Below are positions 11,947 to 48,817 of a stretch of DNA of 64,000 bases, one piece after another. The DNA comes from Chryseobacterium aurantiacum (GTDB taxonomy: Bacteria; Bacteroidota; Bacteroidia; Flavobacteriales; Weeksellaceae): contig NZ_PXUE01000002.1 in the NCBI RefSeq assembly GCF_003020585.1, positions 310,001 to 374,000 of the forward strand, written 5' to 3'. The position numbers were made by a program, and so were the translations under genes. Below the pieces are notes generated by a model that saw only the letters and a program-made list of their open reading frames with translations, searched no databases and had not been told where the DNA came from. Numbering within the stretch: the first letter of the stretch is position 1; every line of letters starts with the position of its first letter.

Positions 11947-11992
11947 TATGTGAAATCAACATAGGATATGTGCAAATACAGTTCTAATTTTG
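11947..11992 (+). promoter_or_regulatory. Promoter P1 of the shared 'CATAGGATATGT' class
   Basis: TATGTG half-site, second TATGT 20 bp downstream within CATAGGATATGT, 13-bp gap, then TAATTTTG as the -7 box. TGATTA follows 10 nt later. It reads toward the 617-residue surface gene with a leader of about 190 nt. Confidence 0.75.
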
Positions 11993-12190
11993 CAGCCACA
12001 AGTGATTACCAGGCAATATGTTGAACCTTTAATTCAAGATAAAAAACAGACAGACAATTACACAGTCTAATTCCTCATCAGTTATTCTGATTTATAAAAT
12101 CTCTTAGCGAAAATTTTGATTCTTTTGGAACAACTCAATCATCATTCTTCCTATTTAGATATAACACAATTTTTTTAAAACACGACAATT

Positions 12191-14044
12191 ATGAAAAAAT
12201 GTTTAGTAGCTATGCTCGTTTCCGGGCTGGCTTATTCTCAGGTGGGTATTAATACGCAAACCCCAAAATCAACACTAGATGTAATGGTAAATCCTACGGG
12301 TTCAAAACCAGAAGGGATTATTGCTCCTCGCATGACAGGCGATGCACTTAGGAGTAGAGACTTATTGTATACTACAGACCAAAATGCAGCCTTAGTATAC
12401 GTTACTTTAGCAGACACCGCTCCTGCCGGCAAAACAATTAATGTGACATCTCCCGGATACTATTATTTTGATGCTGCTGTTACCAACACGTGGATCAAGC
12501 TTGGCACAGGGGGTACTTCTGTTCCTGCTGGACCTACTCCTGCTGCTTGGTATCCTGGAGGAAATACAGAAAGTTCCGAAAAAACCTTAGGAACCAATAA
12601 TAACTTTGACTTGCCGTTTGTTACCAATGGTACTGAAAAGGCAAGATTAACTACCAGTGGCTCTTTTGGTATTAACACACAAACTCCACAAGCCACATTG
12701 GATGTAACGCTACGTCCGGCCACTGCTAATCTACCGGAAGGGATTATTGCTCCCCGTATTACAGGTAATGCACTAAAGGCAAAAAATGCTCTTTATCTTG
12801 CTGCTCAGAATGGTACTTTGGTCTATGTTACTACAGCAGATACGGCTCCCACAGGCAAAACAGTTAATGTAACAAGTCCCGGGTACTATTATTATGATGC
12901 TGCCACTAGTATATGGATCAAGCTTGTAACAGATGTGTCTGCTTGGAAACCTGGAGGGAATACAGAAAGTTCAGAAAAAACTTTAGGGACAAATAATAAC
13001 TATGACTTGCCATTTGTTACCAATAATACTGAAAAGGCGAGATTAACAAAAGAGGGATTGTTAGGGGTAGGCACTAACGATCCAGCACATGGAATACATT
13101 TAGTAAGTACATCGACAACGGATCAGAGCAGAGACAATATAGCTATCAGTTCTCCTAGGAATCCGGCTTTCGTGAATATACAGACCACTCCTACTGCTGG
13201 GGAAACTCTTGGTTCATTTCAGTTTCAAGGTCAAGGTCTCGCTTCAGTCAAATCTGGTATATATAGTACTGTGGAAGCGTCCGGAACTTCATCATCTTTA
13301 GAATTTTTGACATCTAATAAAGAACAGGTTCGAATAGATGGAAAGGGTTTTGTTGGAATAGGTACAGACACCCCATTATCAAGGCTTCATATTGTTGCTA
13401 AAGATAATGCTACAGTTTCTGATAATGATATTAGACTAAGTTCATATAAAAATGGTGGAGACCAACCAAGTTTCTTTTTCACCCGAGCAAGAGGAACTGA
13501 AGCCAGCCCACAAAATCTTCAAGCTGATGATTTTATTGGTTTATTTAGATTCCGTGGAGAAATTGGAGGTTCAGAACAGGAAGTAGGCTCTATTGGTTAT
13601 CAATATACAGGTAATGGTACTAACACCAATGGAAGTTTAGTATTAGCTGTCAATAACACAATTCGTGCTACATTGAACCAGGCGGGTACATTTAATGTTA
13701 TTGGATCTGTACAATCACATGGGGTAACATTATCATCTGATGCCCGTTTTAAGACCGATATTGCAACCATTAAAAATGCCTTACCTATTATCACCAGCTT
13801 AAGAGGTACCACTTACCAAATGAACAAGGCTGCATTTCCTGAGCGTCATTTTGCAGACGGTAAACAATATGGTGTTATTGCGCAAGAGATAGAAAAAGTA
13901 TTGCCGGAACTGGTAACTACTAACGAGGATGGCTATAAGAGCGTTAACTATCAGGGTATGATTCCTGTTTTGATTGAAGCGGTAAAAGAACAACAAAAAA
14001 TTATTCAGCAGCTGCAGAAAGATATGGAACAATTGAAAAAGTAA
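12191..14044 (+). CDS. Large secreted surface protein with C-terminal S74 intramolecular chaperone
   Basis: A 617-residue exported protein, signal peptide residues 1-16 (cleavage after LAYS or nearby). Two tandem copies of the 'GINTQTPxxTLDV ... GIIAPRxTGxAL ... LVYVT.ADTAP.GKT.NVTSPGYYY' module occupy about 18-125 and 158-255. Shorter VGTNDP and VGIGTDTP repeats follow. The C-terminal 100 residues have SSDARFKTDI (Ser near 516), YGVIAQEIEKVLPELV and a final coiled coil, which is the Peptidase_S74 auto-cleaving chaperone of phage tail spikes. Such domains drive trimerisation and are then cut off. I infer a trimeric fibre on the cell surface. It is driven by P1 and followed by a terminator. 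Confidence 0.85.
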   Translation: MKKCLVAMLVSGLAYSQVGINTQTPKSTLDVMVNPTGSKPEGIIAPRMTGDALRSRDLLYTTDQNAALVYVTLADTAPAGKTINVTSPGYYYFDAAVTNTWIKLGTGGTSVPAGPTPAAWYPGGNTESSEKTLGTNNNFDLPFVTNGTEKARLTTSGSFGINTQTPQATLDVTLRPATANLPEGIIAPRITGNALKAKNALYLAAQNGTLVYVTTADTAPTGKTVNVTSPGYYYYDAATSIWIKLVTDVSAWKPGGNTESSEKTLGTNNNYDLPFVTNNTEKARLTKEGLLGVGTNDPAHGIHLVSTSTTDQSRDNIAISSPRNPAFVNIQTTPTAGETLGSFQFQGQGLASVKSGIYSTVEASGTSSSLEFLTSNKEQVRIDGKGFVGIGTDTPLSRLHIVAKDNATVSDNDIRLSSYKNGGDQPSFFFTRARGTEASPQNLQADDFIGLFRFRGEIGGSEQEVGSIGYQYTGNGTNTNGSLVLAVNNTIRATLNQAGTFNVIGSVQSHGVTLSSDARFKTDIATIKNALPIITSLRGTTYQMNKAAFPERHFADGKQYGVIAQEIEKVLPELVTTNEDGYKSVNYQGMIPVLIEAVKEQQKIIQQLQKDMEQLKK

Positions 14045-14065
14045 AGAAATTTTCACAATTCAGGA

Positions 14066-14105
14066 AAAGAGACTGTTTCATTTTGAAACGGTCTCTTTCT
14101 TTTTT
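14066..14105 (+). terminator. Terminator of the S74 surface gene
   Basis: AAAGAGACTGTTTC pairs with GAAACGGTCTCTTT (one G-T pair) around ATTTT, followed by a T tract. Confidence 0.9.
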
Positions 14106-14114
14106 GTATTGTTT

Positions 14115-14240
14115 GAAACGCAGAGATTTTATCGGTGATAAAATTGGATAGTGTCTATTTTTTTAACACCACGCAGATTTTCCAAATTAAGCAGATGCTT
14201 GTGAAAAAATCCGCATGATCACCTAAATCCGCGAGAAAAT
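14115..14240 (+). repeat. Intergenic repeat, copy 1 of 3
   Basis: About 125 bp starting at CGCAGAGATTTTATCGGTGA and ending in CTAAATCCGCGAG. Two further copies follow within 450 bp. It contains a short inverted part, TTTTATCGGTGATAAAA. Similar dispersed repeats are common between genes in Chryseobacterium; no function is known to me. Confidence 0.85.
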
Positions 14241-14863: not shown

Positions 14864-14909
14864 TATGTGCAGACAGCATAGGATATGTTTTAACACTCCT
14901 TTAGATTTG
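14864..14909 (+). promoter_or_regulatory. Promoter P2 of the shared class
   Basis: TATGTG half-site, 20-bp step to TATGT in CATAGGATATGT, 13 bp, then TAGATTTG; TGATTA follows 11 nt later. It reads into the relic at 15016 and the three-gene run behind it. About 150 bp upstream is a sequence also found before P3 (ATATGTTTTGAAA...CATGATTC). Confidence 0.75.
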
Positions 14910-15015: not shown

Positions 15016-15222
15016 ATGAAAAAATGCTTTATTACAATCCTCCCATCAGGGCAGGTCTATTTTCATTTGGGTGCTAATACCCACAATCCTCAATCCAATT
15101 TGGATGTAACCGCTAAAATAACAGACCGAACCAGATCCGGAAATTTAATGGCTTCAAAACTTACAAGAGAGCAAGTCCGGAGATGTGCAATACAATGCTG
15201 TTCAGAAAATCTCCTCATTTGA
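15016..15222 (+). pseudogene. Truncated relic of a 'GINTxxP' surface protein
   Basis: Sixty-eight codons resembling the start of the gene at 12191: MKKC start, LGANTHNPQSNLDVTAK in place of GINTQTPKSTLDV, then MASKLTREQ in place of APRMTGDAL. The similarity stops where the YYYF/WNG part should begin, and GIN has become GAN. There is no clean signal peptide. It is the first frame after P2 and may now act only as leader for the genes behind it. Confidence 0.65.
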
Positions 15223-15291: not shown

Positions 15292-16212
15292 ATGAAAACA
15301 ATTTTTTTCTCAATTGCTACTCTTGCAATAAATTTTTGCTATGCGCAAAATGTAGGGATTAATACCCCCGTACCCGATCCCTCTGCTATTCTCGAGGTAA
15401 GTGCCAACTCTGCACCCGGATCTTCCATTACAAGCAAAAAAGGCTTTCTGCCACCCAGAGTCGCTTTAATGGATATTAATGATGTGACAACAATACCGTC
15501 TCCCGCCCCAGGCCTTTTTGTTTATAATACTGCCAATGCAGGAAGTTTTCCCAATGAAGTAATTGCTGACAGGTTTTATTATTGGAATGGAACTAACTGG
15601 GAATGAATGGTCTATACAAGTACTGTATTAGAGGTTGTAAAAACAAGAATATTTTACATCAGCGGGACAGATACCCAAATATTTACCGACTCCGACATGA
15701 ATTCTCCTGCTGCAACTCCCCCTCCCAATAATCTGGTAACTTTTACAACAGCCCCCATCATAAACAATGGGAATATAATTACAGCGAATCCTGATTCTTC
15801 ATTTACCATCAATATATCAGGAATTTATGATATTTCTTCTTTTGTAAATTATAATCCTATGGCTACTACAGTCGGCATCCCGAATATTAGCTACAATACT
15901 AGAGCGTTCCTAAACGTAAAAATACAAAAATCTGTAAATAACGGAGTTACATGGGCTAATATGATAGGATCCAGGACTGCTTGGGGAGAAAATGCGGCAG
16001 GTACTTTAAAAACAGCAGCTTTATTGGGTACTCCGGTACAACTAAATCAGGGAGAAAGAATTAGAGTAGTTGTTGCCAATCCGTTTGATTCTTCGTCAAA
16101 TAATAATCATTGCGGAGGCGGAGACTGCTCTATAAGTGCAGACCCTGCTAATAGTCTGCCGGTTTCTAAAGGCTTATTATTAAAATTATTAGATTATAAC
16201 AAAATAGATTAA
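15292..16212 (+). pseudogene. Secreted module protein split by an in-frame TGA
   Basis: Two stretches in the same frame: 15292-15606 (104 codons: signal peptide ending CYA, NVGINTPVPDPSAILEV, GFLPPR, GLFVYNT, FYYWNGTNWE) and 15607-16212 (201 codons). They are separated by a single TGA at 15604-15606, immediately followed by ATG. The next gene down has WNGTNWT followed by continuous sequence at the same point, so this was one 306-codon gene. Either it is recently inactivated, or the stop is read through, or the second half is made by reinitiation at TGA-ATG. The second half resembles the C-terminal jelly-roll-like domain of its neighbours but would lack a signal peptide. Confidence 0.8.
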
Positions 16213-17055
16213 ATGATGAAAAAAAATAGTATCGCACTTATAGTATTACTTGCATTTCAGTGCCTTTATAGCCAGGTAGGAATTGGTACAAATACACCCA
16301 ACTCTTCTTCTGCTCTGGATTTAGATGCTGCCAGTTTTCCGGTAAATGGTAAAAAAGGGTTTCTTCTACCCAGGTTAGCATTACAGAACAACACTGATAT
16401 TGTGACGATTCCCAACCCCGCCGCTGGTCTTTTAGTATACAATACCACGAATAATGGTTCCGGTACATCTGCCGTAGAAGCAAACACCTATTATTATTGG
16501 AATGGAACAAACTGGACCAATCTTTCAAGCATTACCGAAGTAAAAAGAGAGCTTTTCCCCCAAGTTTTTGTTATTAAAGAAACAACTGTACAAAACACCA
16601 TTGCAGGAGCCGATAATATAAATACTGCTCCGGTACAGGTCCTTTATTCAACTGCTTCTGAGATGCTAAATACAGGTAACAACATCACTGTTCTGCCTCA
16701 AAGCTACTTTAAAATAAATAATACTGGTGTCTATGAAATCTCAGGGTATATTAATTATAATCCTGCAATATCTCTATCCGCAAGTACTAATATTGAATTT
16801 ATCATTCAGGTATCTGTTGATAATGGCACCAGCTGGACAGACATTAATAGAACGATAGGCGTCTGGGGCCAATCCACTGGCGGTAATAGCAGAACAAATG
16901 GCATCCCTCCCACAACAGTAAACCTGAATCAGAATGATTTAATAAGATGCATGGTATATAAAACGGTGGGTACAGATCATGGTGCAACTGCCCAAATAAC
17001 TACCCCAACAGGATTAGGTAATTCAAAAGTTCTTAAAATACATAAATTAGATTAA
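16213..17055 (+). CDS. Secreted surface protein, module plus jelly-roll-like C-terminal domain
   Basis: A 280-residue exported protein; the signal peptide ends near YSQ (about 20). The module spans about 22-105: VGIGTNTPNSSSALDL, KKGFLLPRLAL, GLLVYNT, YYYWNGTNW. The C-terminal half (about 110-280) has YFKINNTGVYEISGYINYNP, SVDNGTSWTDI and LNQNDLIRCMVYK. That resembles the C1q/TNF-like beta sandwich ('fluid comes in as x, GxY x x x x, V x L x x GD x I'). That assignment is by pattern only. It starts immediately after the previous stop and 2 bases before the next gene, so the three are one operon from P2. Confidence 0.75.
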   Translation: MMKKNSIALIVLLAFQCLYSQVGIGTNTPNSSSALDLDAASFPVNGKKGFLLPRLALQNNTDIVTIPNPAAGLLVYNTTNNGSGTSAVEANTYYYWNGTNWTNLSSITEVKRELFPQVFVIKETTVQNTIAGADNINTAPVQVLYSTASEMLNTGNNITVLPQSYFKINNTGVYEISGYINYNPAISLSASTNIEFIIQVSVDNGTSWTDINRTIGVWGQSTGGNSRTNGIPPTTVNLNQNDLIRCMVYKTVGTDHGATAQITTPTGLGNSKVLKIHKLD

Positions 17056-17057
17056 AA

Positions 17058-17903
17058 ATGAAAAACATTATACTATCATTCTTATTTGTCTTTTATTCAT
17101 ACGCATATAAAGGGCAGGTGGGCATAGGTACCACCACTCCCCACTCATCAGCACTACTGGATATTGATGTAAGTGGGATTTCACCCAAAAAAGGTTTTTT
17201 GCTTCCCAGAGTAAACTTGACCAATAATATCGACAATTCTACTATCCCGAGTCCTGTTAATGGCTTAATGGCTTTTAACCAATTAGCAGCCGGAAGTCCA
17301 GGCAATGCCATACCGGCTAACTCTATGGTTGCATGGAAATCATCGAGTTGGATGGTTTTTACGAATTTACCCGAAATCCGGATATTAAAACCCGCTGTAG
17401 AATATGTGGCAGTATCAAGAAATGAGCAAAACTTTACCACCACCGGAGAGCTAACAACAGCTAATCTAAGTACACCTGTTGTTGTTTCATGGCTACCAGG
17501 AGATATTCAGGTGGCAAACCCTACCGATATGCAGCTTGTGGGAAACAATATAAAATTTATCACAGATGCTTTTTACGAACTTTCAGGGATGATAACCTTT
17601 ATAGCCAATGTGGCTACCATTGGAGACACTTCTCACGTTATGATTGTACTGCAATCTTCTCCTGATGGAACAACATGGAGTGATATTTTTGGGAGAAGTA
17701 TGCCATTTGAGAGCCTATCTACAGGGAAGTCACAAGGTATTAGTATCCCGGAATTTGTTCATCACTTTTCAGCAAATGAATTTTTAAGAGTGGTTATTAT
17801 TAAACCTACGTTTGCCAATAATTATACCTCCAACTCAGGGTTAGTAACTAATAATCCCGCTGATATAAACAAATCTTTAAGAATAATCAGGGTAAAACAA
17901 TAA
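17058..17903 (+). CDS. Secreted surface protein, same two-part design
   Basis: A 281-residue paralogue of the two genes before it. The signal peptide is followed by GQVGIGTTTPHSSALLDI, KKGFLLPRVNL, GLMAFN and WKSSSWMVF (a degenerate WNGxxW). The C-terminal half has YELSGMITFIANV, SSPDGTTWSDIFGRS and FSANEFLRVVIIK, aligning with the putative jelly-roll domain of its neighbour. It differs enough in sequence to present a different surface. Last gene before a terminator at 18037. Confidence 0.75.
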   Translation: MKNIILSFLFVFYSYAYKGQVGIGTTTPHSSALLDIDVSGISPKKGFLLPRVNLTNNIDNSTIPSPVNGLMAFNQLAAGSPGNAIPANSMVAWKSSSWMVFTNLPEIRILKPAVEYVAVSRNEQNFTTTGELTTANLSTPVVVSWLPGDIQVANPTDMQLVGNNIKFITDAFYELSGMITFIANVATIGDTSHVMIVLQSSPDGTTWSDIFGRSMPFESLSTGKSQGISIPEFVHHFSANEFLRVVIIKPTFANNYTSNSGLVTNNPADINKSLRIIRVKQ

Positions 17904-18311: not shown

Positions 18312-18357
18312 TATGTTTGGCAAGCATAGGATATGTTTTGAGACTATTCTACATTTG
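18312..18357 (+). promoter_or_regulatory. Promoter P3 of the shared class, before a non-coding element
   Basis: TATGTTT half-site, 20-bp step to TATGT in CATAGGATATGT, 13 bp, TACATTTG; TGATTA follows 11 nt later. The next protein gene starts 440 bp away and a strong terminator lies between, so the product seems to be a short RNA. Confidence 0.75.
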
Positions 18358-18363: not shown

Positions 18364-18597
18364 CAGAATGATTAAAATAAAATCTTCCAAGCCTCCTAGG
18401 GCTTCATTTTGGGAGGGAGACCATCAAATAAATTAATTTTAATCTTTTTGAGCTGTATATACAATGACCCCATTAAAGCATACTTGCCTGTAGACCAAAC
18501 GGGGTAAAATTATATAGCAGCCAAAAAAGATTCTATTTTCTTTTTCATAATTGTGTTAATATATAGGAGAGATGTGTACTCTCCTATATTTTTTTAT
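18364..18597 (+). ncRNA. Structured non-coding RNA candidate, copy A of five
   Basis: About 235 nt from the expected P3 start to a terminator made of ATATAGGAGAG (18561-18571) and CTCTCCTATAT (18579-18589) plus a T tract. The inner part (18424-18597) aligns with four other copies at 23.1-26.3 kb. It has an outer stem from AATTTTA/TAAAATT and an inner stem ACCCC/GGGGT, where other copies have CAATT/AATTG or CAAT/ATTG. A TAC/GTA mini-hairpin around TTGCCT is shared. The base changes on both sides of the inner stem favour a real RNA fold. A 22-codon frame starts at 18368, only a few bases after the predicted start. Confidence 0.6.
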
Positions 18598-18797
18598 AAA
18601 GACTGATCATCTACAAAAAAATCGACATCCGCATCTTCTTACCTCCCTTTTCCGCAATAAGTTGTACAGCATCTAAACTTTATTCTTGGAAGAATAGCAA
18701 AGTCTTTATTGAACTTATTTTGCAAATGTAGGAAAAATCCGATCATTGCGCACAGAAAACCGCACTATTTTTTTAGCCTTTCTCGTTATTTGTTTCA

Positions 18798-20490: not shown

Positions 20491-21741
20491 TTATAGCTTC
20501 AGACCATAGTAAATTTGTTCAAAATAATTATTTAGGGATAATATTCGGCTCTTGTCTACAGGGTTAATATATTTTTGAAACATTTGTTCGGTAGTATGCC
20601 CGGTTGCTTCCATAAGCAATGGTGTAGGAATTTTCCCATAAAAATTGGAGGCAAAACTTCTTCTCCCGATATGGCTTGTAAGGACTTCCCATTTTTCTAG
20701 GGATAGTTTTTTTATTCGGTAGCCAATACGTTTACTGGTGTATATCGTTTCCTTTAGATCAGCTTTTTTTGCAATTAATTTAATCTTGCGGTTATATTCT
20801 GTACAGCTCATCTTTTCGGGAAACTCGTTTTTATATCGGCTTATAATCTGATGTACGGCAGGATGTAGCGGGAGGGTAATTTTCTTTTTGGTCTTTTTTT
20901 GAGTAAAGGCAATGCAGGTTTTTCCATCTATCATTTCCAATTGTTCAGAAGAAAAATTCATAAAATCAGAAATCCTTTGTCCTGTATAGCAGCTAATCAT
21001 AAGCCAGTCCTTGGCAGCCTGCAATTCTTCCGGAACCATAGTCTTGCTAATGCTGTCAATCTCCTTTTCATCAAGGGTTACCATTTCTTTATGCTGCCTT
21101 TCTCTCCTTATTTCTATCTGCCATACCTGGGTACGGATTCCCTTTTTTTCAGCAAAATTAAGAATGGTCTTTATGAAGTGTATAGTCCTGTATATGGTAT
21201 TCTCGCTATATTCTTCTATGCTTCCGAAGGCCAAAAAGCCTTTCACAAATTCCATATCTACAGATTCTATAGAGAACCGCTTTGCCATATGCCCTTCGAA
21301 GCGTTCTACCAGTTTAAAAAAAACCATATACCTTTTATAGGTAGAAGGGGAAATAAAGTCCTTTTTCAGAGCAATGTATGTGCTAATGATATTTAAAAGT
21401 GAATTTTCGGGAAGATTATTTTCTTTTACCTCACAAATTCTTCTGACCTCTTTTGAAACAGAGCTTTGAGAAGTGATTTTTTTCAGAAGAATATTTTCCT
21501 TTAGTACTTCAGTAAGGGAAATCTTCAAATGATTAAGCTTTACATTCAGGGCTTTATACTTCTTGAAATAGATATTGCCGGGCCTCTGTTTTTCAGCATC
21601 CCATTCTTCAGGATTAATTTTGAAAGGGGTTTGAATAGAATAATCAATTTTGAATTCCGCAGCAGTAATTTTTATATATATGTCATGAGAACATGAAAAA
21701 TTTTGCTGATTATTTTTTAATAAGAAGAAATTAAAGGTCAT
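20491..21741 (-). CDS. Tyrosine recombinase, candidate promoter invertase
   Basis: Site-specific recombinase of the phage integrase family, 416 residues. It has an N-terminal arm (1-110), a SAM-like core-binding domain (about 115-205) and a catalytic domain (about 220-400). The full catalytic set is visible: Arg256 in CYTGQRISDF, Lys near 286 in KKKITLPL, His357 and Arg360 in HIGRRSFA, His382 in ATGHTTEQ, and nucleophile Tyr390 in FQKYI. Length and layout match Bacteroidota integrases, which include promoter invertases. No tRNA, excisionase or element core is beside it. Instead an inverted-repeat-bounded promoter begins 38 bp upstream of its start. In the present orientation that promoter points at this gene. 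Confidence 0.9.
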   Translation of the reverse strand: MTFNFFLLKNNQQNFSCSHDIYIKITAAEFKIDYSIQTPFKINPEEWDAEKQRPGNIYFKKYKALNVKLNHLKISLTEVLKENILLKKITSQSSVSKEVRRICEVKENNLPENSLLNIISTYIALKKDFISPSTYKRYMVFFKLVERFEGHMAKRFSIESVDMEFVKGFLAFGSIEEYSENTIYRTIHFIKTILNFAEKKGIRTQVWQIEIRRERQHKEMVTLDEKEIDSISKTMVPEELQAAKDWLMISCYTGQRISDFMNFSSEQLEMIDGKTCIAFTQKKTKKKITLPLHPAVHQIISRYKNEFPEKMSCTEYNRKIKLIAKKADLKETIYTSKRIGYRIKKLSLEKWEVLTSHIGRRSFASNFYGKIPTPLLMEATGHTTEQMFQKYINPVDKSRILSLNNYFEQIYYGLKL

Positions 21742-21778
21742 TGTTATTGTTTTGATCGGCTAATTTAGAATAAAAAAT

Positions 21779-21796
21779 TAGTCCTACAAGGACTAG
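21779..21796 (+). repeat. Left inverted repeat of cassette 1
   Basis: TAGTCCTACAAGGACTAG. It has the form TAGTC-CTACAAG-GACTA: two 5-bp arms around a 7-bp asymmetric core, as expected for a tyrosine recombinase crossover site. Confidence 0.85.
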
Positions 21797-21872
21797 TTTT
21801 CTAGGCAAATTCATTATAAAACTTTCTTGACAGAAAAGCCTAATCAATTATCCTTTAATCATTTGTACGGGG

Positions 21873-21918
21873 CAAATTTAGAACAGCCTTTGCACATATC
21901 CTATGCCCATTTCACATA
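21873..21918 (-). promoter_or_regulatory. Promoter P4, inside cassette 1
   Basis: On the minus strand: TATGTG, 20-bp step to TATGT in CATAGGATATGT, 13 bp, TAAATTTG; TGATTA follows 11 nt later. Its sequence is closest to P5. Confidence 0.78.
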
Positions 21919-21984
21919 ATGTTATTATTATTTACAAAAAGGCTAAACACTAACTCATTAACTTGTAAATCAATAAGTTAAAAG

Positions 21985-22002
21985 CTAGTCCTTGTAGGAC
22001 TA
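21985..22002 (-). repeat. Right inverted repeat of cassette 1
   Basis: CTAGTCCTTGTAGGACTA, the exact reverse complement of the left repeat, with core CTTGTAG on this strand. Confidence 0.85.
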
Positions 22003-22150
22003 CTTGTATAAAATAAACACAATTGATCACAGGACATTTCCTATTTAACTTAAGAATTTTCTGATTCAGAAGATATCTTAATTTTTTGACAGCTTGTCTC
22101 TGTGAACGCATGATTAAGCAATTAAAAACAACAAGTTAATTTTTTAAAAG

Positions 22151-23047
22151 ATGAAAACAAAAACAATTACATTATTAACCCTCATTACACTATCTGCATT
22201 TTCCTATGCACAAACAGGAAACGTAGGGATTAATACCACTGGTCCCACAAAGAATTTGGATATTAATGGGGATTTAAGAGTCAGAACATTACCCATAATG
22301 CCAGGCGGAACCCCTTTGGTTTCTGATGCAAATGGTAATGTAGGGATATTTAGGCCAGTAGATCCAACTAATAACGACTTTACTCTGTATCATGTTGATA
22401 GTAATGTCAGACAAAATGATTCCCGAACCGTTCCTCTCTCTTCTATCCTAAATGTGTCTCAAATGACTGCCGGCCAGGTACTGGATACAGAATGTTGGCT
22501 AGTTCCTAATTCTGAAGTTAGGTTTAAATTTCCTACTGGTGGTTCAATAAGAAGGGGAACAGCATCTTGGGGGATGTGGTTTGAGATGAAGTATCCTGCT
22601 ACTACGAATCCTCCTAGTAACGCTTTCCCTTTAATACCTTCCGGAGGATCAGCAGGAACTATTAGAGGACCTATATACTTCCACAGCAGAGCATATGCAA
22701 GATTGTCTAAAAATACAGGTACTGCTGCTAGTCCTATTTGGACAGTAATGAATGTAGTGTCAGTAGTTATGCAAACTTCACAGATGTCTCCTTACTTTGA
22801 TGAGGCCATAAAGTATAATGAAACTGGTGGTCCTATTGGTGGTGGTTCAAACTATAATTTCCGATACTTTCTTTCCGCTAATTATAGTATGGATTCAGCT
22901 ACTCCGGATTCTGAATATAAAGTAGAGCTATTGTATGGCATTGAACATTTATCTTCAAGAACAGCCAATGTACCACCGAATGCACCTGCTGATTATTTGC
23001 AGAATTGGGGGATTCAGTCGGCTTCTTTCAGTTATTATAAAAACTAA
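22151..23047 (+). CDS. Secreted surface protein next to invertible cassette 1
   Basis: A 298-residue exported protein, signal peptide ending SYA-Q (about 21). It starts with NVGINTTGPTKNLDINGDLRVR, the family opening, but then leaves the usual module for VSDANGNVGIF and a long unique C-terminal part (about 80-298) rich in aromatic residues (WGMWFEMKYP, NYNFRYFLSANYSM). No membrane anchor or T9SS tail. It lies just right of cassette 1, so expression should depend on cassette orientation; as sequenced the promoter points away. Non-coding element B begins about 20 bp after the stop. Function unknown; adhesin or surface antigen is inferred. Confidence 0.8.
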   Translation: MKTKTITLLTLITLSAFSYAQTGNVGINTTGPTKNLDINGDLRVRTLPIMPGGTPLVSDANGNVGIFRPVDPTNNDFTLYHVDSNVRQNDSRTVPLSSILNVSQMTAGQVLDTECWLVPNSEVRFKFPTGGSIRRGTASWGMWFEMKYPATTNPPSNAFPLIPSGGSAGTIRGPIYFHSRAYARLSKNTGTAASPIWTVMNVVSVVMQTSQMSPYFDEAIKYNETGGPIGGGSNYNFRYFLSANYSMDSATPDSEYKVELLYGIEHLSSRTANVPPNAPADYLQNWGIQSASFSYYKN

Positions 23048-23250: not shown

Positions 23251-23320
23251 TAGAGAGAGAGAGGAATAAATATTTAAATGACAAATAGTCGGTTAAAAGC
23301 ACCCGCTATACAGAGTAAAT

Positions 23321-23549: not shown

Positions 23550-23718
23550 ATTGATATTAGTTCCAAAGCCTTTACTAAATTCATTTAAAAATCTGATGAT
23601 ACCTATTATCAAAGAATTGATTTTTAATATTGTGATAGATTATTCTTAATTATCTGCAATAAGAATAAAGATTTATTATATTAAGTTGTCCTAAAATAGG
23701 TTTACATAAAAATTAAAC

Positions 23719-23747: not shown

Positions 23748-23815
23748 GCTCTGTAGCTTCATTATAAGACGATGTAAAAGAGATAATGATATATAAATAT
23801 ATGGTTTGATAACAT

Positions 23816-23872
23816 AAAAGTAATAATCTTGGATTTTTTTTTTGTAAAAAAAAATCCAAGATTATTACTTTT
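23816..23872. terminator. 27-bp perfect hairpin beside cassette 2
   Basis: AAAAGTAATAATCTTGGA plus nine T residues pairs exactly with its reverse complement around TGT. It is far longer than an ordinary terminator. It lies 32 bp left of cassette 2, where the promoter points left as sequenced, so it would stop that transcript. Confidence 0.8.
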
Positions 23873-23904
23873 AACACTGATTATCATTTGATTTAATGGC
23901 AAAA

Positions 23905-23923
23905 GTAGTCCTAGTTAGACTAT
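23905..23923 (+). repeat. Left inverted repeat of cassette 2
   Basis: GTAGTCCTAGTTAGACTAT, form TAGTC-CTAGTTA-GACTA. Confidence 0.85.
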
Positions 23924-23998
23924 TTTTTAAACGAATTAATTATGCCTTTTTCATAGACTTAAATGCTTAATCAATTACCCTTTAATCATTTATATGTG

Positions 23999-24044
23999 CA
24001 AATGTAAAACAGCATTCAAACATATCCTATGTCAATTTCACATA
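23999..24044 (-). promoter_or_regulatory. Promoter P5, inside cassette 2
   Basis: On the minus strand: TATGTG, 20-bp step to TATGT in CATAGGATATGT, 13 bp, TACATTTG; TGATTA follows 10 nt later. Confidence 0.78.
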
Positions 24045-24100
24045 TTATCTAAAAAAAATAAAAATACAATCAAGTGGTTTATAATTCAATAAGTTACACC

Positions 24101-24119
24101 ATAGTCTAACTAGGACTAC
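24101..24119 (-). repeat. Right inverted repeat of cassette 2
   Basis: ATAGTCTAACTAGGACTAC, the exact reverse complement of the left repeat. Confidence 0.85.
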
Positions 24120-24625
24120 CTTTTAAAACATAAATTATTTACCAATTATGAGGAAAAAATGTATTTCTAATATAAGAACAAAGAGTATGTATCAGATCGT
24201 AAATAAAGTATTTCAAATTTAATAGCATTATAAAGGCTTTATATATATTTCAACAGTATAGTAATTATCCTTTTGTTTTCATCTAATTATTACATTGTCA
24301 TTAATTGTATAAAGCCTATTTATTTTTCAGCTTGAGCTTTTCCTTTCCTTAAGATAGAAAAAATTATTAACTAAAAAATAGTATTGATAATCAATCAAAT
24401 TTTAAATACAATGAATAAATATGATGAGAGACCTGTACGCTCTCCACCCTTATAAAATATTAACTAATAAAAAAATATCAAAAACACCATATTGGTAACA
24501 ATGTTAATACAATCTTCACCCTTATTTGTCGCTTGGTGCATTTTGATATTTGTTCATGAATACCTTATAAAAACACAAGAATACAACACAACTAAAATAA
24601 TTAACTTAATTAAAAATTACTTAAG
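24120..24625. other. Long leader region before the cassette-2 surface gene
   Basis: No gene above background. A 14-codon frame starts at 24411 and covers a GAGAG/CTCTC mini-hairpin. TTTG-containing boxes near 24527-24552 could be a second, non-invertible promoter, but the spacing is poor. Confidence 0.3.
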
Positions 24626-25585
24626 ATGAAAAACAAAATTACAAAAGTAATGACAATCACGGCATTGACTTGTTCCCTTGCAGCAAATGCACAAAGCGGA
24701 AGAGTGGGTATTAACACCTCTACTCCCAATACCACTTTAGATGTTACCGGAAAACTGGGAGCAACTGATGCAGACGGTCTGCAGGCACCTAGACTTACCC
24801 GCGGGGAGATTACCACAAAAGGAACTTTGTATACAACAGCCCAAACCGGAGCATTGATTTATATTACAGACATTTCCGGAGGAGATAATGTAGGACCTAG
24901 AATCAATATTACAGGAACTGGTTATTATTATTTCGATGGAAATGTATGGCAAAAAGTAGCTTCAGGTACTGGCGGCGGTGGCGGTGGAAGCAATACCGCT
25001 GATAACGGTCTTACTTTAACAGGATCAAACATACAGTTAGGAGGTAATTTAATACAGCCAACCACTATTGTGACAACAGCAACCAATCAGCTTACCATCA
25101 GCGGGCCTGCAACAGGTGGACTAAAATATTTAGATGGTAATCAGGGTGTAGATAAAATACTTGGAAGTGATGCTAACGGGGTGGCTACTTGGATTCCAAA
25201 CGTACAAGCACCTAATGCCGCCTTAAATAGATTTGTTACTAACCCTAGTGGTGTTTCTGCTGCTGCTTCCACTTATACTAGAATTTCTACAATTTTTAGC
25301 GTTACTAAAATTGGACTGTTTAAAACTTCTGGCAGCCTTTCCTGGACAGGTACAAGTCCCAATATATTATATGTCCATTTGTGGGAATGTACAGCTACAG
25401 GAACCCTTGTGAGTAGAATTAGTATGGTTTCATCAATATATGCTCCTGCATCTAATTTCTTCCTTAATGAAACGCCAGTATATCTCGAACCAGGAAAGTT
25501 TTATTGTTATACTGTTTTGCCAAGTAGTGGTCCAATTACTGTTACTGCTGGAACTGGCAGTTATGGATTTATCCATCTTCAATAA
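24626..25585 (+). CDS. Secreted surface protein next to invertible cassette 2
   Basis: A 319-residue exported protein, signal peptide ending ANA-Q (about 22). It has the full module (about 27-110): RVGINTSTPNTTLDV, GLQAPRLTRGEI, GALIYIT, GYYYFDGNVWQKV. A glycine linker (GTGGGGGGS) follows, then a repeat-like middle and a unique beta-rich C-terminal domain (about 195-319) ending YGFIHLQ. No anchor is visible. As sequenced the nearby promoter faces away, so I infer it is off in this clone. Linker plus variable tip suggests a fibre or display protein; the ligand is unknown. Confidence 0.82.
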   Translation: MKNKITKVMTITALTCSLAANAQSGRVGINTSTPNTTLDVTGKLGATDADGLQAPRLTRGEITTKGTLYTTAQTGALIYITDISGGDNVGPRINITGTGYYYFDGNVWQKVASGTGGGGGGSNTADNGLTLTGSNIQLGGNLIQPTTIVTTATNQLTISGPATGGLKYLDGNQGVDKILGSDANGVATWIPNVQAPNAALNRFVTNPSGVSAAASTYTRISTIFSVTKIGLFKTSGSLSWTGTSPNILYVHLWECTATGTLVSRISMVSSIYAPASNFFLNETPVYLEPGKFYCYTVLPSSGPITVTAGTGSYGFIHLQ

Positions 25586-29410: not shown

Positions 29411-29446
29411 ATAAAAAAGGAGGAACAACTGAAGTTGTTCCTCCTA
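29411..29446 (-). terminator. Terminator of the P6 transcript
   Basis: AGGAGGAACAAC pairs perfectly with GTTGTTCCTCCT around four bases; on the minus strand TTTTTTATAGG follows. Confidence 0.88.
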
Positions 29447-29681
29447 TGCAAATAATGTCAGAAGACCAGAGGCCCTCATTAAAATAATTAAGGAAAAAAT
29501 TAGAAAGTATTTTCCTCAAACAAAATGAAAAAATATTCTTTATTTAAGATTTCAGAAAACAATTTGTTCTCTTGAATACCCCAACAAAAATTATATAAAC
29601 CCAACAAAAAAATAAAAATATTTCCTACTTACTAGATACAGAAGTGATGATATGACACTCCTACATCTAAACTATTATATC
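29446..29681 (-). ncRNA. Orphan minus-strand transcript from P6
   Basis: From the expected P6 start (about 29681) to the terminator at 29411-29446 there is no reading frame of note. Promoter and terminator face the same way about 240 bp apart, so a small RNA is the simplest reading. Its sequence is not like copies A-E. Confidence 0.5.
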
Positions 29682-29687
29682 CTTATT

Positions 29688-29733
29688 CAAAATAACTCAT
29701 CCTAGACAACATATCAAATGTCATATACACATT
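29688..29733 (-). promoter_or_regulatory. Promoter P6 of the shared class, 'TTTG' variant
   Basis: On the minus strand: AATGTG, 20-bp step to TATGT in CATTTGATATGT, 13 bp, TTATTTTG. It has a proper TTTG at the -33 position where P1-P5 have TAGG. Confidence 0.68.
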
Positions 29734-37621: not shown

Positions 37622-37654
37622 GTTTTTTGTTTTTAATGGATAATATCTGTTTAA

Positions 37655-40078
37655 TTAGGGACAAGTTTGGGTATTCATGCAGTTCCAGCCATAGGTGGTC
37701 CCATTGTCTGTAGTGGTGTATACCTTGAGACAGTTGAGCGTGGTATCATACACCATCATACCTTCTACCAGGTTGGCAGCCGGAATCAGGTTAATTTCTG
37801 CGGTCGTCAACCTGTTAACTACAAACCCCTTGGTCTTGGATTCAAGAGCAGTCCAAGCTCCCTTTCTTACCATAGGCCAGTTGTCTCCGGCGCTTCCGGC
37901 TCTTCCCAAGGAAGTAATTCCATATTGTGTATCAAGCCCAATGCCTGTTACAGGAGGTTTACTACAGGTATTACAGCCTGATGGTCTTACAGCGCCGTTT
38001 TGAGAGCTACCTAGGCCCTGACCCTGATCATTTCCAATATCAGCAGCACCGCCAGTGTTTACCAAAATAGGAACCCCCTGGGCATCAATGCAGGAAAAAT
38101 TGGGGCACAGATTTTTCTTGGGAGCCCAGGAACCGGTTCCAACCCCTACGGTTCCACCGGATACAGATAGCTGGCCAATCGTAGCATTCTCGTCTCCTTC
38201 AATGGCATCTAGGCATCCATCATTATCAGAATCCAGATCCAAATAGTTGTCTACTCCGTCGTTATCAAAATCGCAGTTTTGGAATTGTTCTGCCCCAAAA
38301 GTAAAATTAGCATAGAATTCAGGGGCTGTATAATCAAACGAAATAGCAGTATGCACCCCCGGAATTTTTACAATAGCAAAGCCTTCTGTTCCCGTAAACT
38401 GGGTTGGAGAATTTACGACAACTCCTGTAGACCAAACAATCTGAACAGGGCGATCAAAGACTACAGGAACTGCTAAGCCCGCATTTCCAACAGAAGCAAA
38501 TACAAAAAGAGGGTTCGGCATAGGTTCGGCAAACGTGAGCACATTATGGGACACCTGAGTATTTTGTATGGTAGGATTATTATTGGGAACCCCATAGGAT
38601 GCAGGAAACGTGCTATGACCAACTACCCCCGCAGTGGCTCCTATTAGCTTGTCTGATACATAGGTATAAGGTACTCCATTGACAACTCCGCTGGCAGTAG
38701 CTCCAGAGATCGTAATAGGTCCCGTCCAATAAAACTGTTTAGGACATTCTATGGCATCAGGAATTCCATCATTATCCGCATCCAAATCATTAATAATATC
38801 TGTAATCCCGTCACCATCACTATCCGTAGTGTTGGTCATCAAGGCCAGGTATCCGCTAGCCAGCTGGCTTCCAGTAAACATTCCTTCCGAACTGGCACTG
38901 GCACTAAGAAGCCCTAAGTTTACAGCACCGGAGGTGAAGTTTCCGTCTGCATCCCAAATCAAATTCCAGGCAGAAGGATAAATGTCTATTGATGAGAACT
39001 TCAATCCTACATTTTGGGTAAAGTTTGTATTCTGAATCCTCCATTCGCGGGAAATTCTTGTATTGAAACCGGGCGCTACATCTGTTGCTTGCCTGGTATT
39101 TGCAGACGCATTATCATTGCCAATCATCAGAAAACCAAGATTTCCACTTATGGTCACTCTGCCTGCATCCTCATTGGGTAAGCTGAAATCCGAATTGGTA
39201 GACAACGTTAATGTAGCATCCGTATTTTGAGATTTGGAAACTTTCTGTTCCAATGCAGAAGCATCATCCCTACCGATTCCTGCAACATTCTTGTCATATC
39301 CTGTCCCAGAGGTCCAATATGTTCCTCCGGCAGAGTTTATATAATCTCCAGACTTTGTATATCCATATTTAAGAGCCAGATAGGACTCCACTTTATTTTT
39401 GTCAGCATTGCTTAGGGCTGTATTATAGGTAATATACTCCGGAACGACCACATTGGAGTTTTCTCCACTACTTCCTCCTATTGTCCCCCTAAAGGCTATA
39501 GCTCCAGAGGCTGCTCCTGAAAGGATTGTGGACCCATTACCGGAAAAAGAGAAAGGACCGGCACTTCGAATGTAGGTATATTGCGTCAAGTCTCTTTTGG
39601 AATCTATCACCCCGTTCACCCCTGTGACAAGGCTATTGGGAGTTCCGTCATAAAACACCGTATTCATTCTATTGGTCCAATATCCTAATAAAACATTTGA
39701 TAAAGCAGAACCAAATACCCGCCCGTTTACACCAATAGTCTTTAACGTAGATACCCCGAATACAGAGTAGCTTCCACTGAGGTCCAGAGCTGCAGGCAGG
39801 GTGAATATACCAGAGGTATTAAAGGTATAGGATCTGTTAAAATTGACCAGATCGGTAGTAGAATTGTAGACAATGGTTCCCGTTCCGGCAGCGTCATTGG
39901 CTCCTACATTGTTTTTCCAGACAGTACCGGTATTCCCTATGTTCTGTTTGTTCCAGGATACGAGTCCCGTACTGATACCACCAGGGGCTTGTGCAAAAGC
40001 TTTCCCACCTTGGGATACCAATAGTAAAGCTGTGATGCTTTTGAGAAAAACAATAGATTTAGTAAAAATTTCTTTCAT
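37655..40078 (-). CDS. Large secreted surface protein, paralogue 2
   Basis: 807 residues, signal peptide ending AFA-Q (about 29). Same order as the gene at 34611: lectin-like front domain (GLVSWNKQNIGNTG...), GIGRDDASALEQKVSKSQNTD, DSDGDGITD/DLDADNDG loops, a C-terminal beta domain and the shared 95-residue module with the same ending YGWNCMNTQTCP. Differences cluster in the middle (about 270-560), while the first 240 and last 95 residues are close to identical, as expected from gene conversion or recent duplication with diversification of the exposed part. Confidence 0.82.
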   Translation of the reverse strand: MKEIFTKSIVFLKSITALLLVSQGGKAFAQAPGGISTGLVSWNKQNIGNTGTVWKNNVGANDAAGTGTIVYNSTTDLVNFNRSYTFNTSGIFTLPAALDLSGSYSVFGVSTLKTIGVNGRVFGSALSNVLLGYWTNRMNTVFYDGTPNSLVTGVNGVIDSKRDLTQYTYIRSAGPFSFSGNGSTILSGAASGAIAFRGTIGGSSGENSNVVVPEYITYNTALSNADKNKVESYLALKYGYTKSGDYINSAGGTYWTSGTGYDKNVAGIGRDDASALEQKVSKSQNTDATLTLSTNSDFSLPNEDAGRVTISGNLGFLMIGNDNASANTRQATDVAPGFNTRISREWRIQNTNFTQNVGLKFSSIDIYPSAWNLIWDADGNFTSGAVNLGLLSASASSEGMFTGSQLASGYLALMTNTTDSDGDGITDIINDLDADNDGIPDAIECPKQFYWTGPITISGATASGVVNGVPYTYVSDKLIGATAGVVGHSTFPASYGVPNNNPTIQNTQVSHNVLTFAEPMPNPLFVFASVGNAGLAVPVVFDRPVQIVWSTGVVVNSPTQFTGTEGFAIVKIPGVHTAISFDYTAPEFYANFTFGAEQFQNCDFDNDGVDNYLDLDSDNDGCLDAIEGDENATIGQLSVSGGTVGVGTGSWAPKKNLCPNFSCIDAQGVPILVNTGGAADIGNDQGQGLGSSQNGAVRPSGCNTCSKPPVTGIGLDTQYGITSLGRAGSAGDNWPMVRKGAWTALESKTKGFVVNRLTTAEINLIPAANLVEGMMVYDTTLNCLKVYTTTDNGTTYGWNCMNTQTCP

Positions 40079-46105: not shown

Positions 46106-46558
46106 TTAAGCTGCTTCATAGCCTATTAACTTTTTAAGATCATCTTCTAACTCTTTTAATTTTTGTGTCTTTACAAAAGTGACATCGTAATTCAAAATAA
46201 TTACCCGTGATCTTCCTTTTATTGATATATATAGTTTCTTTTTAAGGAAAGTTTTTTGCAATTTATATTGACGGACAAGTATTTTAGGAAATTCATCAAG
46301 CCCTCTATATCTATTATTTCCAGTAAAAATATTTTTGTTTCTAATAATCAAAACCTCTCCCTCACTATTATATTCGAATATCTGTCTTATGGTAATATGC
46401 GTGAAAATAATCAGCGCCAACAATATTAATCCAAAAGCGGATAACCCTATTATTTCAAAAAAAAGATTTAAGAAAACAATTGTAATCACTAGCAGCAATG
46501 ACAACACAATAAGTACAATTCTATAGATCTGCATAAATTTCATATTACTTAAGTTCAT
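46106..46558 (-). CDS. Small membrane protein of unknown function
   Basis: 150 residues. Two adjacent hydrophobic segments (about 12-30 and 33-55), then a soluble C-terminal half (FEYNSEGEVLIIRNKNIFTGNN..., ISIKGRSRVIILNYDVTFV) resembling a PH-like or YcxB-like cytoplasmic domain of small membrane proteins. It is the first gene after promoter P7, with a leader of about 275 nt that contains a GAGGAG/CTCCTC hairpin. Function unknown. Confidence 0.7.
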   Translation of the reverse strand: MNLSNMKFMQIYRIVLIVLSLLLVITIVFLNLFFEIIGLSAFGLILLALIIFTHITIRQIFEYNSEGEVLIIRNKNIFTGNNRYRGLDEFPKILVRQYKLQKTFLKKKLYISIKGRSRVIILNYDVTFVKTQKLKELEDDLKKLIGYEAA

Positions 46559-46842
46559 GGTTTATTGTATTAAATAATTTTATCAGTTATTGTGTTTTTA
46601 CCTTTATTTTACAGTTCTATTATTTACAATATTATATCATCAACCTAGCCTGGAATAAGAGAGGAGATTATGAGATCAATCTACCTCCTCAATCCTACTT
46701 CCAGTTTTCAACAAATGAAATGTTATCTATTATGCTTATCATTAATCTAAAAAATCTTCAAGGTTTCATTGGTTGCACTTACATTTCATATTCTAAATAA
46801 TCTTATTCAGAAATCAACCCAATCAATTGCTAAATAATAACA

Positions 46843-46888
46843 CAAAGGACTAAATTCAACGTAACATATCCTATGTCAAATACACATT
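46843..46888 (-). promoter_or_regulatory. Promoter P7 of the shared class
   Basis: On the minus strand: AATGTG, 20-bp step to TATGT in CATAGGATATGT, 13 bp, GTCCTTTG. The -7 box is the weakest of the eight (TA replaced by GT); TTTG keeps the fixed position. Confidence 0.6.
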
Positions 46889-46993
46889 ATTTATGTCTTA
46901 CTAACATTTTTTAAGATTATTTATTAACAATTATATAATACCTACACAGCATTCAGCGAATATTCACAATACCACATAATACTATGGTACTTC

Positions 46994-47196: not shown

Positions 47197-47529
47197 TTAT
47201 ACTAGTTTAAACATTTTCCTCCATTTTGTGACTGTATTCCTGCTGAGGTTAAAATGCAGACTCAATTGTTTATTGTTGAGCCTGTTTTGTTTTTGATAAT
47301 TTAAAATCTTAATAATCGCTGTTTCATTATAAGATTTGTGCTTCTGATTCATTATAAAGCTGTCTTTATTCCCTCTCCCGAATATCAATTCATTAAGACG
47401 GATAACATCCAGTACTGACAGCTCTTTTTTTCCCAATACAGATTGGCAACTATCTCTTTTTTCAGGACATTTTTTTTCAAGGATATCATTAAAAATTCTT
47501 CTGTAATCTGGTGATAAAAATTTTTCCAT
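47197..47529 (-). CDS. Helix-turn-helix protein, transposase-type HTH
   Basis: 110 residues. The C-terminal half, YNETAIIKILNYQKQNRLNN and KQLSLHFNLSRNTVTKWRKM (about 64-103), is a clear helix-turn-helix of the kind found in transposase and resolvase N-termini. The N-terminal half (SPDYRRIFNDILEKKCPEKR) is helical. Not part of a transposase here: no catalytic domain follows. Third of three minus-strand HTH genes behind P8. Confidence 0.7.
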   Translation of the reverse strand: MEKFLSPDYRRIFNDILEKKCPEKRDSCQSVLGKKELSVLDVIRLNELIFGRGNKDSFIMNQKHKSYNETAIIKILNYQKQNRLNNKQLSLHFNLSRNTVTKWRKMFKLV

Positions 47530-47574
47530 ATCATATATTTTGTAACATTATAATTGTGTAGGTAGACTGCTTCT

Positions 47575-48051
47575 TTATGCTATATCTTTATTCTCTGATA
47601 TTTTCACTTGAGATTCTTCGTTATTATATTTACTGAACCATTTATGCAGGGTAGATTTAGGAATTCTATATTCCTGTATCACTTCTGATCTTGTTTTTTC
47701 TCCTTTTTTTATAAGTTCAATGATAAATTCTATGATTTCTTGTGTATAAATATTTTTCCTGAACTGAGGGAGCTTTCCGCTTTTCTTTTCGGTATTGGGA
47801 AGAGAAGAAGAGGGAGAATAAAGAATAAGATGCATGGAATAGATTCTAAAAAAATCATACTCCAGTAACTTGGACCATTTTAACAAAAGTGCACTATCCA
47901 TGCTTTCTGCCTGATACATGTCCTCTATTTTCCTAACATCGGTTTTAAAAAAATTACAAATACGATCTATTTCAATTTTACATTCGGAAACACGTGTACT
48001 AATCAGGTTTCCCATATGAATCTCTTTGAAATTTCCTTTTTTCATTTTCAA
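47575..48051 (-). CDS. Helix-turn-helix protein
   Basis: 158 residues. The C-terminal region, YTQEIIEFIIELIKKGEKTR, EVIQEYRIPKSTLHKWFSKY (about 98-142), is a transposase-like HTH related to the next gene. The N-terminal part (CKIEIDRICNFFKTDVRKIEDMYQAESMDSALLLKWSKLLEYDFFRIY) matches a helical region often found before such HTHs in Flavobacteria. Eight bases after the XRE gene and 45 bases before the next, so one operon. Confidence 0.7.
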   Translation of the reverse strand: MKMKKGNFKEIHMGNLISTRVSECKIEIDRICNFFKTDVRKIEDMYQAESMDSALLLKWSKLLEYDFFRIYSMHLILYSPSSSLPNTEKKSGKLPQFRKNIYTQEIIEFIIELIKKGEKTRSEVIQEYRIPKSTLHKWFSKYNNEESQVKISENKDIA

Positions 48052-48058
48052 TGGTTAT

Positions 48059-48409
48059 TTAATGCTTATGTTTGGTTAATTCTTCAATAAATTCTTTCAG
48101 CAATGAAATAATAACCTGTTTTTCCTCGATTATTTTTTCATACTTTTCAATAATCTTATAAGAGACTTCGTTTTGTTCTTGTATATTTTTTTTTCCAATA
48201 TTATCTATAAGTTGTTCTCCATCATACAATTCAGACACTTTAATCCCTAGGATATAGGCTATTTTTTCTATCTCAATGGCACTAAAAGGAATATCTCCTT
48301 TTTCTCTTCTGCTATACTGAGATTGATTAAGCTTGAGTTCAAAGGCAATATAATCTTGAGAAATTTTTCTATTTTCTCGAATATTCTTAACTGTTTTATA
48401 TATTTCCAC
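48059..48409 (-). CDS. XRE-family regulator with coiled-coil tail, GTG start
   Basis: 116 residues. XRE domain at about 6-62: IRENRKISQDYIAFELKLNQSQYSRREKG, FSAIEIEKIAYILGIKVSELYDG. A helical tail (YKIIEKYEKIIEEKQVIISLLKEFIEEL) follows and may mediate dimerisation. The only usable start is GTG. First of three regulator genes behind promoter P8, with a leader of about 355 nt. Confidence 0.83.
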   Translation of the reverse strand: MEIYKTVKNIRENRKISQDYIAFELKLNQSQYSRREKGDIPFSAIEIEKIAYILGIKVSELYDGEQLIDNIGKKNIQEQNEVSYKIIEKYEKIIEEKQVIISLLKEFIEELTKHKH

Positions 48410-48771
48410 TGTTTAAAAAATTAAAAAGTTATTAATAACATAGTTCTATGACAATAATTTAACTTGTTCGCACAGTAAAGCTATAGACAGATATTACTTC
48501 CTATATATTTTCATTATAAAAAATGGCGTTATTTGGCCTTTACCTTAAGACCGTAAGAAAGGATTAAAATGGAGTATCATTTATTAATAACAGTGTTCAA
48601 GCATCATTTGACAGCAATTATCACCGCAACATAAAATTTGCATACTTTACATTTTAACAATCATTAAATATCACAACATAGGAAGCAATGCCTTACCTAT
48701 TTGCGAGACCGGGAAGTGTTTATTAAGATTAATAAGTTAAATTTTCTCATCGTACATTATCATTTGTATAG
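48410..48771. other. Long leader between P8 and the HTH operon
   Basis: AT-rich, no long frame. It includes a 19-codon minus-strand frame at 48584-48643 with five cysteines (CC-x3-CC), noted below. TGATAA occurs 9 nt after the -7 box. Confidence 0.35.
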
Positions 48772-48817
48772 CAAAATAAGGTATTAAATATAACATATCA
48801 AATGTCGTAGGCACATT
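48772..48817 (-). promoter_or_regulatory. Promoter P8 of the shared class, 'TTTG' variant
   Basis: On the minus strand: AATGTG, 20-bp step to TATGT in CATTTGATATGT, 13 bp, TTATTTTG. Almost the same boxes as P6. Confidence 0.68.

Follow-up and report, generated by a model that had tools for sequence, protein, structure and literature searches.

A cluster of promoter-like sites among surface-type genes

A 64,000-nucleotide stretch of the Chryseobacterium aurantiacum genome (assembly GCF_003020585.1, contig NZ_PXUE01000002.1, positions 310,001 to 374,000; hereafter the window, in whose coordinates all positions are given) carries eight promoter-like sites of a single rigid geometry, which we analysed together with the genes around them. 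Sites are named by their outer coordinate, three on the plus strand (11947, 14864 and 18312) and five on the minus strand (21918, 24044, 29733, 46888 and 48817). Genes are called surface-type on the basis of family matches and N-terminal likeness. The first site (11947..11992) precedes a gene for a surface-type protein with a Peptidase_S74 chaperone domain (12191..14044, plus strand). The second (14864..14909) lies before a short, surface-protein-like open reading frame (ORF) and a gene run at 15292-17903; this ORF (15016-15220) resembles the start of a surface protein, with 15016-15180 matching the S74 protein, and is apparently a truncated gene. The third (18312..18357) has no adjacent surface gene and may be an orphan; it is followed directly by a folded element of about 170 nucleotides (nt) with a terminator-like end (18426-18600). 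Two sites lie within inverted repeats: 21918 (21873..21918) points toward a tyrosine recombinase of the phage integrase family (20491..21741, minus strand) and away from the gene of an exported surface-type protein with GINTT near its N-terminus (22151..23047, plus strand), and 24044 (23999..24044) points away from the gene of another such protein, with GINTS near its N-terminus (24626..25585, plus strand). The remaining three contain tandem dyads. Site 29733 (29688..29733; dyads 29709-29741) precedes a putative non-coding RNA (29415..29682, minus strand) and 46888 (46843..46888; dyads 46864-46896) a 150-residue ORF without a Pfam match (46106-46558, minus strand). Site 48817 (48772..48817; dyads 48793-48825) precedes an operon-like run on the minus strand, encoding an XRE regulator (116 residues, HTH_3; 48059..48409) and two small helix-turn-helix (HTH) proteins of 156 residues (47578..48045) and 110 residues (47197..47529; Pfam HTH matches sub-threshold only). 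A divergent GerE (LuxR-type) gene lies beside XRE (49328..50251, plus strand).

The pattern [AT]ATGT-N15-TATGT-N17-TTTG occurs eight times in the window and recovers every promoter listed in the original prediction, each of which we also read in place. In 200 order-1 Markov windows its mean count is 0.005 and its maximum one. The rigid spacing was likewise confirmed: both gaps are identical in all eight sites, and among 240 spacing combinations scanned (first gap 8-23, second 10-24) only (15,17) occurs more than once, the other 239 yielding three matches in total, one each at three spacings. In the assembly as a whole (4,615,988 bases, 15 contigs; genome G000 of our set) the pattern has ten matches, eight of them within a 37-kb stretch of the window and two on contig C12 (loci L009 and L010), and the reversed-pattern control has none. 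The matches thus form a local cluster, and with ten strict matches in 4.6 Mb we reject a genome-wide regulon. Across 59 related genomes, the strict pattern with TANNTTTG as its -7 box matched the own genome only. A pattern search of contigs returned nine loci, of which we read the one in Chryseobacterium sp. S0630 (L013); the eight others belong by their titles to unrelated groups and were taken as chance.

Two related kinds of site

Do the eight sites share one architecture, as had been proposed? Their geometry is common, but they fall into two related classes, the -7 boxes of one class are weak, and two sites sit between long inverted repeats. The dyad ACATA-N3-TATGT, which the original prediction placed around the second half-site, is perfect in three of the eight; the element common to all eight is CAT-N2-GATATGT.

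Class A has the form TATGTG-N7-CATAGGATATGT-N13-TANNTTTG and comprises 11947, 14864, 18312 (with one mismatch), 21918 and 24044 in the window and L009 and L010 on C12. With up to three mismatches, the sole additional match in the own genome is the class B site 46888. At the same tolerance, 173 genus genomes (relatives being represented by one genome per species) contain class A sites only in G000 and G182, the control matching in one other genome; G182 gives the same places as S0630. With the two of S0630, class A numbers nine sites. They keep the proximal dyad and one distal half-site, and information is concentrated accordingly: 1.35 bits per position in the distal repeat, 1.40 in the proximal dyad and 1.06 in the -7 box, against 0.69 and 0.73 in the spacers, 0.53 in the leader and 0.30 in the flanks.

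The available text on Flavobacterium psychrophilum (PMC9723704) places the flavobacterial sigma-A promoter motif TAnnTTTG at -12 to -5; on that scale the dyad centres lie at about -32 and -52. Class A resembles such promoters in its -7 box, which is TANNTTTG in eight of nine sites, and differs from them, as far as that source describes them, in that no site has TTG or TTTG at N17-21. The -33 position (N19) reads TAGG in 9/9. Class A is probably an activator-dependent promoter: without a -33 box, it should transcribe the surface genes only when an activator, be it XRE or some other regulator, is bound, and we regard this dependence as likely on sequence grounds.

Class B (29733, 46888 and 48817) reads ACAT-N5-ATGT-N7-ACAT-N5-ATGT-N17-TTTG and so contains two full dyads 20 bp apart. 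Its -7 boxes are weak (TTATTTTG, GTCCTTTG and TTATTTTG) and are not TANNTTTG. All five class B sites, counting one each in the relatives G089 and G187, have an extra ATG placed 20 bp upstream from the half-site of the distal dyad. In 29733, 48817 and G187 the proximal dyad includes a TTTG at N19 relative to the -7 box and thus extends over what may be a -33 box; in 46888 and G089 the proximal dyad has no TTTG at N19.

Class B sites accompany an XRE gene

The own genome has the perfect tandem dyad at three places and no more. Among the 173 genus genomes it is present in G000 and G089; the reversed control is found in two other genomes, at one place each. XRE homologues at E 1e-10 are present in four of the 173: G000, G187 (60%), G089 (56%) and G124 (39%), so that three genomes encode one at 56% or above. 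In each of these three a tandem precedes the XRE gene, starting 416 bases before it in G000, 243 in G089 (perfect) and 208 in G187, where 2 of 20 letters are changed; N7 and N17 are kept in all three. Shuffling the upstream regions, with 500 trials each, gave at best 4 mismatches (G000 and G089) or 5 (G187). The tandem is not found at the 39% homologue of G124 (best 9 mismatches), nor at 11 paralogous XRE loci (5-9), which are those of 15 that remain once L069, L079, L081 and L082 are left out. XRE, both HTH genes and the divergent GerE gene are kept together in G000, G089 and G187, and surface-type genes adjoin this cassette in G089 as well.

Two dyads thus lie as candidate operators at the promoter of the XRE gene itself in three genomes, the layout of a controller (C) protein. 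Class B is most likely an autoregulated operator of XRE, and binding and autoregulation of class B by XRE seem to us quite probable. What kind of protein is this XRE? In a profile search of the PDB, C.BclI ranks first (1.5e-4) and C.AhdI fourth (2.9e-3), its best PADLOC match is a control protein (1.3e-9), and C.AhdI, C.BclI and C.Csp231I are the top three entries for its predicted fold (best E 3e-3), so that C proteins are among its nearest solved sequences and folds. The fold comes from a single-sequence model with mean pLDDT 81. According to the available text of PMC4824078, C.Csp231I has two CTAAG-n5-CTTAG operators 18 nt apart, of which OL activates and OR represses. Like the C.Csp231I of that account, XRE is a small HTH_3 protein whose own promoter has two arm-N5-arm inverted repeats upstream. 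Unlike C proteins, XRE has a predicted long C-terminal helix, and its candidate further targets, the 150-residue ORF and a putative RNA, belong to a surface-antigen locus. The 49 window ORFs scanned include no restriction or methylase family, and in this respect XRE departs from restriction-modification (R-M) controllers.

The putative RNA downstream of 29733 comprises 268 nt, with ends that we set just after TTTG and at a hairpin with a T run. The stretch folds far better than its shuffles (z about -5.3, in two runs -5.29 and -5.35; none of 200 shuffles did as well), has a 13-bp hairpin at its end and contains no ATG-started ORF of at least 25 residues on that strand. Folding is unremarkable in the leaders of 46888 and 48817 (z -1.2 and -1.9). 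At the gathering threshold, Rfam matches in the window are to tRNA only.

Class A promoters in putative invertible segments

Class A sites mostly adjoin surface-protein genes. The second S0630 site, with TAAATTAG as its -7 box, precedes a protein 87% identical to that encoded at 37655-40078 of the window, followed by homologues of the window neighbours of that gene. In the window, 34611-40078 encodes two surface-type proteins of about 810 residues, roughly 75% alike, for which the nearest upstream listed site is class B.

The 21918 promoter lies between 37-nt inverted repeats (21764-21800 and 21981-22017, 81%), the 24044 promoter between 43-nt inverted repeats (23901-23943 and 24081-24123, 79%) and that of L010 between 22-nt inverted repeats (95%). 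The putative invertible segments of the window thus span 21764..22017 and 23901..24123. Two of the three repeat-flanked sites adjoin a tyrosine recombinase, 21918 the one at 20491-21741 and the C12 site its 77% homologue; the 24044 segment has no recombinase adjacent. As assembled, all three promoters point away from the surface gene, so that the minus-strand targets of 21918 and 24044 represent the OFF side. We consider them putative invertible promoters drawn OFF, which if inverted would serve the genes at 22151 and 24626 in the case of the two window sites, and we hold inversion of these segments to be probable. Transcription from 24044 in the OFF direction would meet a perfect hairpin of 28 bp (23815..23873) and would make a short RNA there.

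Are such modules peculiar to this genome? Among the 59 genomes we found 21 recombinase matches of at least 45% identity, 20 of them with a locus, and in 19 of these 20 loci (9 genomes) inverted repeats enclose TANNTTTG. Recombinases of lower identity (<45%) show no such module at the threshold used, except for one pair 564 nt apart at L047. On the side opposite the recombinase, as we read the first one or two divergent ORFs, 17 of the 20 loci have G[IV]N-type surface genes, one has another exported-type protein and two have HTH homologues (L023 and L025). In the 17 modules outside G000 the -7 box is separated from the repeat end by 31-42 bp, and 14 of them carry TTG or TTTG at N18-20; in the two G000 modules neither motif stands at N18-20, and the separation is 105 and 109 bp. 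Their missing -33 box and longer distance mark the switch promoter of this genome as a different type.

Surface-gene switches of Bacteroidetes have a promoter between inverted repeats and a tyrosine recombinase nearby, and face surface genes. The arrangement described here shares these traits and differs in the promoter of the segment, which has regulator half-sites and no -33 box. Published cases, as far as the available texts go, include the invertible promoters of surface genes in Bacteroides fragilis (PMC4747536) and an inversion signature in one flavobacterial sample (PMC5903667). Titles and abstract openings among the matches listed in our literature search contain no case of an invertible promoter in Chryseobacterium.

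No inverted pair brackets 11947, 14864 or 18312. Short or AT-rich inverted pairs bracket the three class B sites and L009 and are taken as unrelated to the switches: 18 nt at 48572/49208, 618 nt apart; 13-nt hairpin arms at 29418/29793; a perfect 12-nt pair (TAAATAATCTTA and TAAGATTATTTA) at 46794/46912, 106 nt apart (46794-46923), around 46888; and 17 nt (82%) at L009.

A model of regulated surface-gene expression and its alternatives

With moderate confidence, we read the eight sites as promoters, of two related kinds, through which regulators act on a surface-antigen locus, with class B run by XRE and class A partly invertible. Binding, activation or repression, inversion and the RNA are here deduced from sequence. 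XRE (48059-48409) would work like an R-M controller protein that has no R-M system of its own. Activation would come from a dimer bound at the distal dyad (about -52), and another dimer, bound at the proximal dyad (about -32) across the -33 region, would keep expression in check; in this way XRE would control its own gene, the 150-residue ORF and the structured non-coding RNA. Class A would be a related form, with the proximal dyad, one distal half-site and no -33 box. Perhaps XRE is also the class A activator in this species, a suggestion that we find rather doubtful. For 21918, 24044 and the C12 site, with the promoter inside an inverted-repeat segment, expression should need two keys, inversion by a tyrosine recombinase and an activator. 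Taken further, and as a tentative proposal less probable than the reading as a whole, an orphan C-protein-like switch would have become, outside R-M, the master regulator of a surface-antigen locus and a small RNA; half-sites would replace the -33 box in invertible promoters, and a surface gene would be on only when its promoter is flipped and the activator present. Invertible promoters are usually treated as simple on/off devices; here the switch promoter seems to need an activator too. If this is true, a population could hold antigens in reserve and release them by signal, and feedback of the C-protein type gains a role outside restriction-modification. Ten fixed-geometry sites in one genome, with related sites in three relatives, provide a ready test set.

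Several observations weigh against this reading. S0630 has class A sites, and its best XRE homologue stands at 33% (E 3.3e-5); XRE alone therefore cannot be the class A binder everywhere, and XRE as sole binder is not supported. This also bears on the single regulon of surface proteins, regulators and small RNAs that had been proposed. The geometry, the location of the sites at positions suited to regulator action on the promoter, and the links to surface-type genes, a regulator operon and at least one putative small RNA agree with it, but class B tracks the local XRE across species while class A occurs in a species without a close XRE homologue, so that one regulon is not demonstrated. Class A sites also share leader sequence, and part of their similarity may thus reflect common ancestry. 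Once mismatches are allowed, the sites of G089 and G000 drown in control matches, and only perfect or gene-linked sites count: the tandem with 2 mismatches occurs at 6 places in the own genome versus 7 for the reversed control, for which reason we ignored weaker matches, and a looser pattern with 3 mismatches gives 5 matches in G089 versus 12, for which reason the gene-linked G089 site alone was used. Because GerE and the two HTH genes are conserved alongside XRE, co-occurrence by itself points no more to XRE than to them. Resemblance to C proteins is modest: an MBF-like protein and a transcriptional regulator, both non-C proteins, take second and third place in the PDB profile search, the single-sequence search ranks the MBF-like protein first and C.BclI second, the best PHROGs match is a phage-type repressor family (7.5e-10), no Foldseek match of the XRE model reaches 0.001, and the other four models have a mean pLDDT of 51 or less. 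The dyads here are 7 nt apart, whereas those given for C.Csp231I in the available text of PMC4824078 are 18 nt apart. Finally, in each of the 19 modules flanked by repeats the promoter as assembled is directed toward the recombinase, and in none away from it; frequent inversion should show both orientations.

Could another protein of the cassette, the divergent GerE/LuxR-type protein or a small HTH protein, bind the dyads, XRE being only a target? The four cassette genes are conserved together in three genomes, the GerE gene runs divergently from the class B promoter, dyads are targets of GerE proteins too, and HTH homologues adjoin recombinase modules at L023 and L025 (47-56%). The genomes of these two loci, G024 and G016, have no exact tandem dyad, so HTH proteins occur without it, and XRE is favoured by the resemblance to C proteins, seen in the protein as well as in the layout of the operators. 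We consider this alternative unlikely. A different account would need no common regulator: class A sites would be alike mainly as copies of a promoter cassette that travelled with surface genes. A AAATGATTAAAGGATAATTGATTA-like leader is indeed common to several of them, and 21872-21918 and 23998-24044 are 83% alike. Yet conservation is concentrated in the repeats and the -7 box, and a -33 box is absent from 9/9 class A sites. At the S0630 locus orthologous to L009 the site is the best-matching block, the 20-base ungapped blocks at its start matching at 17 and 13 of 20 positions and blocks wholly outside it at only 3-11. We consider cassette copying quite improbable.

The original prediction compared the repeats with LytTR-type activator sites; in its favour, half-sites are repeated directly, about two helical turns apart, immediately upstream of the promoter. 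In LytTR systems, as far as the available text of PMC6193735 describes them, the repeats are mostly 9-bp units with a 12-bp spacer, in a minority 11 or 13 bp; they too lie just upstream of the promoter and involve autoregulation, and differ from ours in period, dyad symmetry and protein family. Instead of 9-bp direct repeats with 11-13 bp spacers we find 5-bp half-sites, a 15-bp gap and a 20-bp period in place of the usual 21 bp, with full dyads in class B. As had been noted, no LytTR gene was seen in the window: none of 49 ORFs matches the family in Pfam, a scan that excluded ORF 63279-63920, short or overlapping ORFs and the rest of the genome. On period, dyad form and absence from the scanned ORFs we reject the LytTR comparison, which seems very improbable. 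Just as improbable is a role of the repeats as accessory recombination sites rather than in promoter regulation. Three class A sites do lie within long inverted repeats and shorter pairs bracket the class B sites and L009; in these extra pairs, however, the TAGTCC...AGACTA-type sequence found at the switches is missing, no inverted pair surrounds 11947, 14864 or 18312, and the 17 recombinase modules of other genomes have no TATGT repeats at their promoter.

Other features of the window

The folded intergenic element downstream of 18312 is one of five copies (18426-18600, 23071-23255, 23382-23550, 25827-26008 and 26135-26305). Folding gives z of -3.1 to -4.5 for four copies and -5.2 for a longer stretch around the 18426 copy. 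The element ends in ATATAGGAGAG-loop-CTCTCCTAT and a T run and has no Rfam match at gathering; in the five sequences, 1 of 43 predicted pairs is changed on both sides, which is no proof of structure. Elsewhere, 5530-9647 encodes cytochrome c552, NapC/NirT and ResB/cytochrome assembly proteins, a cluster of the nitrite reductase type, and 26967-29307 holds two adjacent PPK2 polyphosphate kinase genes and a divergent CBS-domain gene. The gene run at 55239-63271 includes two SUKH-type and one CdiI-type immunity family matches.

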